Source: Actinomycetaceae bacterium
GTDB lineage: Bacteria; Actinomycetota; Actinomycetes; Actinomycetales; Actinomycetaceae
Assembly (NCBI GenBank): GCA_030524055.1
Contig: JAUNHH010000001.1
Coordinates: forward strand, 109,838-172,055
Direction of reading: 5' to 3'
Length of the DNA: 62,218 nucleotides
Below are positions 1 through 62,218 of the stretch, piece after piece. Below the pieces are notes generated by a model that was not told where the DNA came from, did not search any database, and saw only the letters and a list, made by a program, of their open reading frames with translations. Position numbers and translations under genes: made by a program. Numbering within the stretch: position 1 is the stretch's first letter; every line of letters starts with the position of its first letter.

Positions 1-57
1 CTTGAGCACGGAACTCTGCCTTGAGCACCAAAGTATGCCTTGAGAGCCCCACAGCCT
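1..57 (+). repeat. Three tandem units of a 19-bp repeat at the left edge
   Basis: Units begin at 1, 20 and 39, each starting CTTGAG; the first two continue as GCAC and end in TGC. The third unit has decayed. The same unit occurs in inverse orientation at the right edge (62176-62213). The array is cut by the window start, so its full length is unknown. Confidence 0.7.
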
Positions 58-257
58 CACAGGAACAGCCGCGCTCTCATATCCAGGCACCTAAAAGAGC
101 AGCTCGCGCCCACCCAGATCCTGCCCCGCCCACACACAGGCGCCCGCCCCCGGCGCCCACACACCAGCACAACACCCACCCGCACCTCCGACCAGGCAGC
201 ACCTCACACACCCGCACAGCACAACACCCACCCGGCCAGCTCACAGACAACAGCGAG
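58..257. other. C-rich, G-poor spacer without a gene
   Basis: The plus strand here is strongly enriched in C and A and poor in G. An 18-base direct repeat starting CAGCACAACACCC occurs near 167 and 215. No reading frame with a plausible start and ribosome binding site is seen on either strand. It lies downstream of the rplL terminator. Confidence 0.5.
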
Positions 258-297
258 CACAACAAAGCCCCGGGCACCCACTACGGGGTGCCCGGGG
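258..297 (-). terminator. Rho-independent terminator of rplJL
   Basis: A perfect 12-bp stem (CCCCGGGCACCC with its complement, 268-279 and 286-297) encloses a 6-base loop. It is followed on the minus strand by CTTTGTTGT. It lies about 30 bases past the rplL stop codon. Confidence 0.85.
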
Positions 298-326
298 CCC
301 TGCCTGCAATCAAGCAGAAGCAAGAA

Positions 327-716
327 TCACTTAAGGGTGACCTTACCGCCGGCTTCTTCGATTTCAGCCTTGGCCTTTTCGGCATCTTCCTTCTTGGCGT
401 TCTCGAAGATGGTGGCGGGGGCGCCGTCCACGAGGTCCTTGGCTTCCTTCAGACCAAGACCGGTGAGGGCCTTGACGACCTTCACAACGGGGATCTTCTT
501 GTCGCCAGCAGATTCGAGGACAACCTCGAACTCGGTCTTCTCTTCTTCGGCGGGAGCATCGCCAGCAGCGCCGGGGGCGGCGGCAACAGCCACAGCAGCC
601 GGAGCAGCAGCGGTAACGTCGAAGGTTTCCTCGAAGAGCTTCACGAACTCGGACAGTTCGATGAGGGACATCTCCTTGAAAGCGTCGATGAGCTCGTCGT
701 TGGAGAGCTTAGCCAT
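327..716 (-). CDS. rplL: 50S ribosomal protein L7/L12
   Basis: Product of 129 residues, the usual length. It begins MAKLSNDELIDAF; an Ala/Gly/Pro-rich hinge near residues 40-60 separates the N-terminal dimerisation helices from the C-terminal factor-binding domain, which has the typical GLGLKEAKDLVDGAP segment. It forms the ribosomal stalk that recruits translation GTPases. The start at 716 is preferred over an upstream in-frame ATG at 725 because AGGAAGG lies 9 bases before 716 and directly abuts the other. It follows rplJ after a 118-base gap and ends in a strong terminator. rpoB, which often follows rplL in bacteria, is not inside the window. Confidence 0.97.
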   Translation of the reverse strand: MAKLSNDELIDAFKEMSLIELSEFVKLFEETFDVTAAAPAAVAVAAAPGAAGDAPAEEEKTEFEVVLESAGDKKIPVVKVVKALTGLGLKEAKDLVDGAPATIFENAKKEDAEKAKAEIEEAGGKVTLK

Positions 717-834
717 GTTTGGCATCCTTCCTTTGTGGGCCTGCTACGCGAGCAGTTTCTGGTGGAATCCGCGTGACAACAGTTGGTGCTGCGCAAGAGG
801 CGCGCCCAAACCGCAACCCGCGGGGCCTGTCGCG

Positions 835-1356
835 TCAGGCCGCTTCGTCCTGCTTTACACGCAGGGCGTCGATAGTGCGCACCGCCTTGGAGGGCAGAGC
901 GTTGAATGCGTATGCAGCCTGGGAAATCTTGGCCTTGAGGGCGCCAGCAGCCTTGGCCAGCAGGACCTCGCGGGATTCCAGATCAGCAAGCTTCTTAATC
1001 CCCTCAGCGGACAGCGGGGAGCCATCCAGCGCACCGGCTTTAATGACCAGGTGGGGGTTCGCCTTGGCAAAATCACGCAGCGTCTTAGCAACCTCAACGG
1101 GGTCACCGGTAACGAAAGCGATAGCTGTTGGGCCTTTCAGGTCCTCAGCGAGGAAGTCGAGACCAACTTCCTGCGCTGCCAGCCGTGCCAGCGTGTTCTT
1201 CACCACGGCGTAGTTCGCGTTATCGCCCAAGCCACGGCGCAGCTCCTTGAGCTGCCCCACGGTCAGGCCGCGGTACTCAGTCAGCAGAACGGCGCTTGAA
1301 CCGCGGAGTGCTTCCGCGATTTCAGCGACGACAGCCGCCTTGTCAGACCTCGCCAT
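835..1356 (-). CDS. rplJ: 50S ribosomal protein L10
   Basis: Product of 173 residues starting MARSDKAAVVAEIAEALRGS. It anchors L7/L12 dimers to 23S rRNA at the base of the stalk. The TEYRGLTVGQLKELR segment near residues 25-40 and the following VVKNTLARLAA are typical of L10. The start is fixed by GGAAGGAGG just upstream of ATG at 1356; a 23-residue longer frame exists but has no such site and would read into the leader hairpin. It is the first gene of the rplJL pair and sits behind a structured leader at 1391-1472, consistent with autoregulation by L10. Confidence 0.96.
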   Translation of the reverse strand: MARSDKAAVVAEIAEALRGSSAVLLTEYRGLTVGQLKELRRGLGDNANYAVVKNTLARLAAQEVGLDFLAEDLKGPTAIAFVTGDPVEVAKTLRDFAKANPHLVIKAGALDGSPLSAEGIKKLADLESREVLLAKAAGALKAKISQAAYAFNALPSKAVRTIDALRVKQDEAA

Positions 1357-60790: not shown

Positions 60791-60843
60791 AGGTCAATCC
60801 TCCCATGACTCCGCGCGCGCTCCTATCCCACTACCATGGCGGC

Positions 60844-62157
60844 ATGGACACCACTTCTGTCACATCTGATGTCCCGACGCTGCATGTGCGTTCGGCCCTG
60901 CTTCCGAGCGACCATCCTGCCGCGTCGTTACCGCTACTTGAGATTGCGCCTGAGCCTGGTCACGTTTTGGCATGGCTGGGGTGGCGCCAGTCGATGATCG
61001 GGTGGGGCGCCGCGCATCGGGTGACGGTTGAAGGCCGGCACGCGATCCGCGAAGCCGCACGTATCTGGGATGACTTGCGCAGCCGCGCGCAGGTGAGCGG
61101 GCATTCAGCGGGTAGATCCGCTGAGGCGCCGCCCTCGTCAACGCATTCCCCTTTGAGCGTGCCCATCGCCTTTTCCTCCTTTGGCTTTGCCTGGGCAACA
61201 CCGGGGGTGTTGGTTGTCCCCGAGGTTCTCATTGTCGATGACGAGGGCGGACGCCACGTGGTGACGGCCTCTACCACTGAGGACGCGCCAGACCCAATTG
61301 ACGCGATTAACCAGGCAATGGCGGCCCGCTCGCCAATCACTGAGGCTCAGGGTTTGTGGACTGCGCCAGGCCGAATGTCGCAGACACAATGGCGCGAGTC
61401 CGTGCGGCGCCTTATTTCGCGGCTGCGTAGTGGGGCTGCGTCGAAAGTAGTGATGGCGCGGGATATGGTCGTGTCTGCTGCTTCGCCTTTTGATGAGCGT
61501 TTCCTTCTGCAGCGCCTCCACGAGCTCTACCCCACAACCTGGGCTTATGCAGTGGATGGTTTGATTGGGGCGACACCGGAAATGTTGGCCTCTACCAGTG
61601 GTGGGCGGCTCACTTCACGGGTTTTGGCGGGGACAGCCCCGTCTGTGGGGGCAGAGACTGATGGTGATGCGCTGCTGGCGAATATGAAGGAGCGCACGGA
61701 GCATCACTTGGCGGTTGAGTCGGTGGCGCGTTCCCTGGCGCCATTGGCGGAAACTGTTGAGGTTCCGGAGACGCCGAGTCTGCTGCGGCTACCCAATGTG
61801 ACACATTTAGCCACGGATGTGACGGCGGTTTTGCGCGATGCCAATGTGTTGGATGTGGCGGCAGCCTTGCACCCGACAGCTGCGGTGTGTGGGACTCCGA
61901 CGCCGCTGGCTTTTGATCTGCTCCTTGCTTTTGAGCAGACCCGCCGAGGCCGCTATTCCGGGCCGGTGGGGTGGATTGATGGCAATGGTGAGGGTGAGAT
62001 TGCTGTGGCGCTGCGCTGCGCTCAGGTGGAAGGTGACGGATCAAGTCTGCGCGTCTTCGCTGGTGGAGGCATTATGCCGGATTCTGTTCCTGAGGCGGAG
62101 TTGGCAGAAACTCGGGCAAAAATGCAGCCCGTTTTGGAAGCCTTAGGGCTCAAATAA
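60844..62157 (+). CDS. menF: Isochorismate synthase
   Basis: Product of about 437 residues from ATG 60844; a longer frame from 60805 has no ribosome binding site either. TACCAT seven bases before ATG could be the -10 of a leaderless transcript. The C-terminal chorismate-binding domain has KVVMARDMVVSA near residue 205, ASTSGGRLTSRVLAGTAPSV near 250, the Glu-rich LANMKERTEHHLAVESV and HPTAAVCGTP near 340, then GRYSGPVGWIDGNGEGEIAVA. It converts chorismate to isochorismate, the first menaquinone step. Motif variants are read as DEGGRH and PPSS inside. Confidence 0.88.
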   Translation: MDTTSVTSDVPTLHVRSALLPSDHPAASLPLLEIAPEPGHVLAWLGWRQSMIGWGAAHRVTVEGRHAIREAARIWDDLRSRAQVSGHSAGRSAEAPPSSTHSPLSVPIAFSSFGFAWATPGVLVVPEVLIVDDEGGRHVVTASTTEDAPDPIDAINQAMAARSPITEAQGLWTAPGRMSQTQWRESVRRLISRLRSGAASKVVMARDMVVSAASPFDERFLLQRLHELYPTTWAYAVDGLIGATPEMLASTSGGRLTSRVLAGTAPSVGAETDGDALLANMKERTEHHLAVESVARSLAPLAETVEVPETPSLLRLPNVTHLATDVTAVLRDANVLDVAAALHPTAAVCGTPTPLAFDLLLAFEQTRRGRYSGPVGWIDGNGEGEIAVALRCAQVEGDGSSLRVFAGGGIMPDSVPEAELAETRAKMQPVLEALGLK

Positions 62158-62169
62158 CGAGGGCGGGGC
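62158..62169 (+). repeat. Dispersed motif directly after menF
   Basis: The core begins at the base after the menF stop codon TAA, so stop and motif read TAACGAGGGCGGGGC. Confidence 0.85.
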
Positions 62170-62175
62170 GCCGGC

Positions 62176-62213
62176 AGCCGCTGGCGCGCTCAGGGCATAG
62201 TTGCGCGCTCAAG
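62176..62213 (-). repeat. Two tandem units of the 19-bp repeat at the right edge, inverted
   Basis: Read on the minus strand, units begin CTTGAGCGCG and CCTGAGCGCG, 19 bases apart, matching the unit seen at 1-57. The array is cut by the window end. Confidence 0.7.
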
Positions 62214-62218
62214 GCACC

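Follow-up and report, generated by a model that had tools for sequence, protein, structure and literature searches.

We propose that a 12-base word, GCCCCGSCCTCG, which is scattered through the stretch of DNA analysed here (the window: 62,218 nucleotides of an Actinomycetaceae bacterium, GenBank assembly GCA_030524055.1, contig JAUNHH010000001.1, positions 109,838 to 172,055 of the forward strand), works like the DNA uptake sequence (DUS) of Neisseriaceae and the uptake signal sequence (USS) of Pasteurellaceae, and would thus be an independently evolved DNA uptake sequence; judging from sequence, we put the probability of this reading at roughly 0.75. The genome shows the structural features of an uptake sequence that sequence data can reveal. 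A fuller version, which we regard as somewhat better than an even bet, is that this is the third independent uptake-sequence system and the first in a Gram-positive phylum, operating via a Tad/Flp pilus instead of a type IVa pilus, with dialects that span two or more genera of Actinomycetaceae and act as barriers to gene exchange among species. The genome, that of a Schaalia-like member of the family, comprises 3,034,260 bases in 47 contigs, and the window lies within contig C32.

Counting either of its two forms, the word is found 29 times in the window (22 copies of GCCCCGCCCTCG, ten on the plus and 12 on the minus strand, and seven of GCCCCGGCCTCG, four plus and three minus) and 951 times genome-wide (476 forward and 475 reverse), compared to 3 and 0 for the reversed-word control. 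The enrichment claimed in a preliminary description of this stretch is therefore real, and the genome-wide count near expectation that it had named as the result that would refute the idea was not seen. With up to three mismatches, the 18-base consensus has 33 matches in the window, compared to a mean of 0.30 over 100 shuffles (maximum 2). The same description had counted 21 exact cores by hand, all of them among the 22 real ones, but missed the copy at 2224 and gave 44629 for 44628; it was right that orientation is mixed, although its strand labels were swapped, so that the copies listed as 'plus' lie on the minus strand and those listed as 'minus' on the plus strand. Its eight copies of a subtype with G at the seventh position include all seven real ones, five of these misplaced by 1–3 bases, while the remaining one (21512) is a one-mismatch copy, ACCCCGGCCTCG. 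The copies in the window, all exact matches to the form named, and two associated features are as follows.

2224..2235, plus strand: GCCCCGCCCTCG core
4466..4483, plus strand: GCCCCGCCCTCGTCAATG, full 18-base consensus
9443..9454, plus strand: GCCCCGCCCTCG core
15892..15909, plus strand: GCCCCGCCCTCGTCAATG, full 18-base consensus
32179..32190, plus strand: GCCCCGCCCTCG core
40561..40578, plus strand: GCCCCGCCCTCGTCAATG, full 18-base consensus, hairpin arm
44628..44639, plus strand: GCCCCGCCCTCG core
49163..49174, plus strand: GCCCCGCCCTCG core
54014..54025, plus strand: GCCCCGCCCTCG core
56985..56996, plus strand: GCCCCGCCCTCG core
1618..1629, minus strand: GCCCCGCCCTCG core
8919..8930, minus strand: GCCCCGCCCTCG core
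9932..9943, minus strand: GCCCCGCCCTCG core
17255..17266, minus strand: GCCCCGCCCTCG core
22174..22185, minus strand: GCCCCGCCCTCG core
24201..24212, minus strand: GCCCCGCCCTCG core
26919..26930, minus strand: GCCCCGCCCTCG core
32965..32976, minus strand: GCCCCGCCCTCG core
40468..40479, minus strand: GCCCCGCCCTCG core
40582..40593, minus strand: GCCCCGCCCTCG core, second hairpin arm
59589..59600, minus strand: GCCCCGCCCTCG core
62158..62169, minus strand: GCCCCGCCCTCG core
10891..10908, plus strand: GCCCCGGCCTCGTCAATG, G at the tolerant position
12572..12583, plus strand: GCCCCGGCCTCG variant
13490..13501, plus strand: GCCCCGGCCTCG variant
59944..59955, plus strand: GCCCCGGCCTCG variant
3475..3486, minus strand: GCCCCGGCCTCG variant
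4150..4161, minus strand: GCCCCGGCCTCG variant
18526..18537, minus strand: GCCCCGGCCTCG variant
17722..17733, plus strand: GCCCCGTCCTCG variant, T at the tolerant position
51108..51119, minus strand: GCCCCGTCCTCG variant
35948..35959, plus strand: GCCCCGACCTCG variant, A at the tolerant position
40561..40593, minus strand: inverted pair of intrinsic-terminator form, 25 bases past the end of gene 40618-41628 (minus strand)
27013..32182, no strand: stretch of 5.2 kb free of matrix sites, GC 0.504, spanning a cassette that is duplicated in tandem and includes an OmpA-domain gene

The motif was modelled with an iterated weight matrix built on a 446.6-kb sample of the genome (contig C3 entire and C32:1-192055), to which the site figures below refer. 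The commonest 10-mer of the sample is CCGCCCTCGT, with 212 copies compared to 4.1 expected from an order-4 Markov model. The matrix finds 413 sites, about one per 1.1 kb (68 in the window), compared to 13–18 in random sequence of order 3 and 44–71 in random sequence of order 5, which itself includes 6-mers of the word (n = 5 each); extrapolated from the sample, the whole genome would hold about 2,800 sites. The consensus, GCCCCG[C>T>G>A]CCTCGTcAAT, is graded: the inner bases hardly vary, the GCC and cAAT flanks are weaker, and little is conserved outside about 20 bases. Its seventh position is tolerant (C 0.69, T 0.15, G 0.12, A 0.04), and the flanks are closely similar for all four bases; we therefore rejected the presence of two dialects within this genome and regard the two subtypes of the preliminary description as one degenerate position. 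Dialects do exist between species, as seen in the intergenic and lepA comparisons given below. Exact matches to the 18-mer in genome_contigs (22 stretches with a single match apiece, four of them Actinomyces or Schaalia records) and to the 17-letter pattern in viral_contigs (12 stretches, again with a single match apiece) add nothing further on mechanism.

Neither strand is favoured by the matrix sites (193/220, p = 0.20), and contig C3 (254.5 kb) carries 102 plus-strand and 116 minus-strand sites even though 10 of its 11 bins have positive GC skew. Enrichment on one replication strand, which the preliminary description had said would favour a role like that of Chi or KOPS (FtsK orienting polar sequences) over uptake, was therefore not found, either genome-wide or in contig C3, the origin not being located. 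The sites are also spaced more evenly than random (variance/mean 0.52 per 5 kb, p = 6e-5, or 0.47 after collapsing clusters; p = 0.02–0.04 at 10- and 20-kb bins). Dense and even spacing in the sampled contigs is what might be expected of a site bound by a protein of chromosome organisation or repair, whether Chi-like, KOPS-like or nucleoid-protein-like, but we consider this explanation unlikely given the absence of strand bias and the shifts of dialect between related species described below, and known Chi and KOPS words are shorter than this one. More generally, the usual alternatives to an uptake sequence fail here because of strand neutrality, length or genic copies.

Ten gaps between matrix sites exceed 3.6 kb. 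The longest (6.1 kb, GC 0.495, contig C3) contains an RHS-repeat gene and is included in a low-GC stretch (L057:7642-17744) which encodes an 1815-aa RHS-repeat protein and carries a DUF4291 gene. The second longest is 27013-32182 of the window, at a low-GC three-gene cassette present in tandem duplicate (26973-32018) with matrix sites only near its edge; its genes encode an OmpA-domain protein and two proteins without a Pfam match, and the two copies are 71%, 47% and 65% identical. Two adjoining gaps (4.5 and 3.8 kb) lie over ribosomal protein genes, of which S3, L2 and L6 were named by search and the rest by eye.

As the preliminary description had stated, copies lie both between and inside genes: of the 413 sites, 138 lie in intergenic DNA, 271 within genes and four at boundaries, so that density per 100 kb is 3.7 times higher in intergenic (255) than in genic DNA (69). 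Genic copies keep to certain reading frames, with 190 of 271 in two of the six possible frames (86 of 141 same-strand and 104 of 130 opposite-strand copies in the favoured frame). Neighbouring sites also tend to form inverted pairs. There are 49 adjacent pairs within 80 bp (26 '+-', 13 '-+', seven '--' and three '++') compared to 29.9 expected (standard deviation 5.5), and 32 neighbours of opposite orientation within 40 bp compared to 7.8 (maximum 17 over 300 simulations) under a model of uniform placement, which ignores the higher intergenic density of sites. The '+-' pairs (n = 22) lie between convergent (8) or tandem (13) genes or, in one case, near a contig end, and none lies between divergent genes or inside a gene; the '-+' pairs (n = 10) lie between convergent genes (4), between tandem genes (3) or inside genes (3). 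Folded as minus-strand RNA, the window pair at 40561-40593 gives -39.7 kcal/mol (z = -5.4, with none of 200 shuffles as good) and forms a long hairpin with a UUUUU run behind it, at a distance of no more than five bases; the gene it follows encodes a prenyl diphosphate synthase-like protein, under the NCBIfam cut-off. By form, position and this one fold, inverted pairs at gene ends thus have the predicted form of terminators.

This raises the question of whether the word is primarily a transcription terminator module, a stock gene-end hairpin of which the single copies are debris. The location of inverted pairs at gene ends and the strong fold and nearby U-tract in the window are as this would predict, but most of the 413 sites lie outside close inverted pairs, 271 of them are genic, and little is conserved beyond the word. 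Terminators, moreover, require no exact 12-base word, and we think this explanation quite improbable. Still less credible is a mobile repeat family spread by transposase, such as a repetitive extragenic palindrome (REP), bacterial interspersed mosaic element (BIME) or miniature inverted-repeat transposable element (MITE): high copy number and palindromic pairs would fit, but no conserved element longer than the word was found, little being kept beyond about 20 bases, and the copies keep certain reading frames and are spaced more evenly than random.

Comparison with relatives shows that the word exists in dialects. Across 34 congeners the 12-base word has 0 to 385 copies, while outside the genus most counted genomes differ from their controls by no more than a few fold, with the exception of G039 (54 copies versus 0). 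For hairpins we used the pattern CGNCCTCGT-N2-20-ACGAGGNCG, with any base at the tolerant position, which detects CTCGT forms only. Over 213 genomes of the family, it finds 94 hairpins here (control 0), 0–60 in the 34 congeners (controls 0–3) and no more than 13 in any of 178 genomes of other genera, with 4–11 in genera g22 and g9. As GACGAG doubles as an Asp-Glu codon pair, intergenic DNA was checked alone, and here CGNCCTCGT is found 128 times compared to 1.5 expected, with C at the tolerant position in 98. That excess, together with the 3.7-fold intergenic density, leaves a codon or amino-acid usage effect in a G+C-rich genome hardly tenable for this organism, although it may be part of the explanation in G+C-rich relatives and in G005, in which GACGAGGAC repeats are the top words.

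The same intergenic counts in relatives are smaller and differ in the preferred base. C predominates in G014 (22 sites versus 0.7 expected, C in 18) and G015 (10 versus 1.0, C in seven), and G predominates in G019 (21 versus 1.2, G in 20), G012 (13 versus 0.7, G in 12) and G011 (7 versus 0.6, all G; with more sequence 24, G in 19), while the tolerant base is mixed in G013 (13 versus 1.2). Further sampling, for which no expectation was computed, gave 12 sites in G010 (G in 11), eight in G034 (all G), nine in G003 (mixed), five in G016, two in G030 and none in G024 or G032. G005 prefers T overall, yet has only three intergenic sites. In total, the intergenic counts show clear dialects for nine of the 21 genomes of the genus that were sampled and for one sampled genome of another genus; in the rest they are weak or absent. 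The contrast can also be followed at a single place, directly past lepA, where 13 of 34 genomes carry the core: the C form is present here, the C form with another flank in G014 and G029, and the G form in nine species of one clade and in G024. The lepA site thus shows different dialects at one and the same location, with about four lineages represented.

The genome from another genus, G039, belongs to the same family and was sampled over 80 kb. Its commonest words are CGCCCTCGG and extensions; CGNCCTCGG occurs 61 times in the sample compared to 4.8 expected, with 14 intergenic copies compared to 0.2, and in its logo A and T stand at offsets matching those of the cAAT flank of the present genome. 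In this CTCGG dialect the ninth base of the core CGNCCTCGT differs, and that base therefore also varies between dialects. We had considered the word to be confined to one genus, and dropped this in view of the 54 copies in G039 (control 0) and its own CTCGG dialect. GCCTCGGnAA is likewise in excess in G024 (21 versus 0.8 expected), G016 (17 versus 3.0) and G030 (16 versus 1.2), and these words are probably CTCGG dialects as well. In G032, CCCTCGGnAA occurs three times compared to 0.2 expected and CGNCCTCGT three times compared to 1.5, other forms tried being not above expectation.

The preliminary description had also suggested looking for import genes, which we found in part: comEA, comEC and two Tad pilus loci (tad-1 on contig C19 and tad-2 on C44) are present, with no type IVa pilus gene over its family cut-off. 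comEA (helix-hairpin-helix and SLBB domains) overlaps comEC, holA follows, and lepA lies 3.5 kb on from comEC. ComEC (532 aa) has a Competence domain over the Pfam cut-off and is under the NCBIfam ComEC cut-off. In this genome no T2SSE ATPase beyond the two Tad ATPases and no N_methyl prepilin passes its cut-off; in 34 of 35 genomes PilT is matched weakly and always under the cut-off, and the matches in this genome are the two Tad ATPases themselves, so that a type IVa pilus based on weak PilT matches was rejected. These searches found neither a type IVa pilus nor a receptor such as its DNA-binding minor pilin, no PilT, no T2SSE apart from the two Tad ATPases and no N_methyl match being over cut-off, and the genome lies outside a narrow class of uptake systems defined by a type IVa pilus and a ComP-like receptor. 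The best candidate in its place would be the Tad pilus, by analogy with transformation in Micrococcus luteus, in which both tad loci are needed, as found in a mutant study that also covered the comEA/EC locus (PMC4322843); tad together with ComEA/ComEC is reported there as frequent in the actinobacterial lineage.

Within the genus, tad-2 TadA (at least 61% identity) is found in 28 of 35 genomes and is missing from G016, G018, G024, G026 and G032, as well as from G017 (a 310-contig draft) and G021 (70% complete). The first five are near-complete and retain matches to comEA and comEC. They have 0–3 CTCGT hairpins compared to 0–94 in the 28 genomes with tad-2 (Mann-Whitney p = 0.002), G017 and G021 having been excluded beforehand as too fragmented or incomplete, and in a LepA tree they fall into two lineages, the placement of G032 being unsure. 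Co-loss of the word with tad-2 as support for the Tad pilus had to be cut back, as the sampled members retain a CTCGG form; G032 alone lacks both tad-2 and nearly every word form tried. A stop codon in comEC of G003 was considered as an indication that competence had been lost, and dropped, since a match to the ComEC of the present genome shows no internal stop.

A number of observations weigh against uptake, or against the part proposed for Tad. The link of the word to tad-2 is weak, because CTCGG forms escape the hairpin pattern and because of three exceptions: one hairpin is found in G006 despite the presence of comEA, comEC and both tad loci; none is found in G030, which has the same genes, though GCCTCGGnAA is present there; and G017 has 27 hairpins and no tad-2 match in its 310-contig draft. 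Two of the four tad-2-lacking genomes of one clade were sampled (G024 and G016), and both retain GCCTCGGnAA. We therefore lowered our estimate for the Tad part a little, while the estimate for uptake itself was left unchanged, since the G039 dialect raised it and the weaker tad-2 link lowered it. The CTCGG words of G024, G016 and G030 are nearly all genic, and no CTCGG hairpin was found among eight genomes checked. G001-G008 have only 1–6 intergenic sites each per 80-kb sample (0.5–1.4 expected, or 0.4–1.4 with G016, whose count lies in the same range), and in G+C-rich relatives the core excess may be due in part to Asp-Glu codons. No special explanation was found for six of the ten longest gaps, including the third longest, which includes a 2-oxoglutarate dehydrogenase gene. 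The lactamase-like domain was not found in ComEC, and the NCBIfam ComEC cut-off is passed by none of 34 genomes compared to five of 14 control genomes. Finally, the titles and abstract openings returned by searches of an open-licence library include no report of competence or uptake for Schaalia; the competence described in PMC10633639 is that of its epibiont.

Among known systems, the USS of Pasteurellaceae has a strong core, a weaker AT-containing flank and about one copy per kb, in all of which the present word resembles it, while differing in the word itself, in phylum and, by gene content, in pilus system. The preliminary description had likened the word to DUS, USS and HIP1 (highly iterated palindrome 1); the likeness to the first two is sound in anatomy, but HIP1 is a palindromic octamer, GCGATCGC, and is a poor match because the word here is not palindromic. 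Thousands of copies, both genic and intergenic, terminator-linked inverted pairs and species dialects around a shared core are features of Neisseriaceae DUS, inverted pairs being reported in all genomes with DUS dialects and linked to terminators (Frye 2013; PMC3630211). The present system differs in its word, its Gram-positive phylum and its Tad loci with no type IVa gene over cut-off, and is known from sequence alone. Micrococcus luteus likewise has comEA/comEC and two tad loci and otherwise lacks type IV pilus genes (Angelov 2015; PMC4322843), and a term search of that paper gives no occurrence of 'uptake sequence'. Neisseriaceae and Pasteurellaceae are described as the only families known to have such words (PMC12616744, 2025), and no uptake sequence is announced for Actinomycetota or other Gram-positives in the titles and abstract openings returned from the open-licence library, subscription papers and preprints lying outside that search.

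If the word is an uptake sequence, a surface receptor, perhaps a Tad/Flp minor pilin, would bind double-stranded DNA bearing GCCCCGnCCTCGT-cAAT, and the pilus would carry this DNA across the wall to ComEA, after which one strand would pass through ComEC and recombine with the chromosome. Imported DNA of kin would replace resident DNA, so that copies of the word would accumulate wherever they are nearly harmless; the inverted pairs that lie at gene ends may double as transcription terminators, and shifts of the preferred bases in related species would give rise to dialects. The trait would then have arisen again without a Gram-negative outer membrane and apparently with another pilus, and these actinobacteria would be predicted to be naturally competent. 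An actinobacterial case would allow comparison of why uptake specificity evolves across independent origins, and the dialects provide a ready test of receptor specificity.

Three other repeats were seen in the sampled sequence. The start of contig C32 (L066:1-2100) carries a repeat, for the most part with a 61-base period, that contains GCGGGGATGATCC (20 copies) and resembles a CRISPR array at the contig end. In G016 (L128, G016:C2:500001-520000, offsets 1485-4365) there are 46 repeats, the first at 64-base spacing, which form a probable large CRISPR array. G011 (L107, offsets 4082-6450) carries a repeated block with paired CGACACGCC and TAATGCTGCA, in several copies within 2.4 kb.

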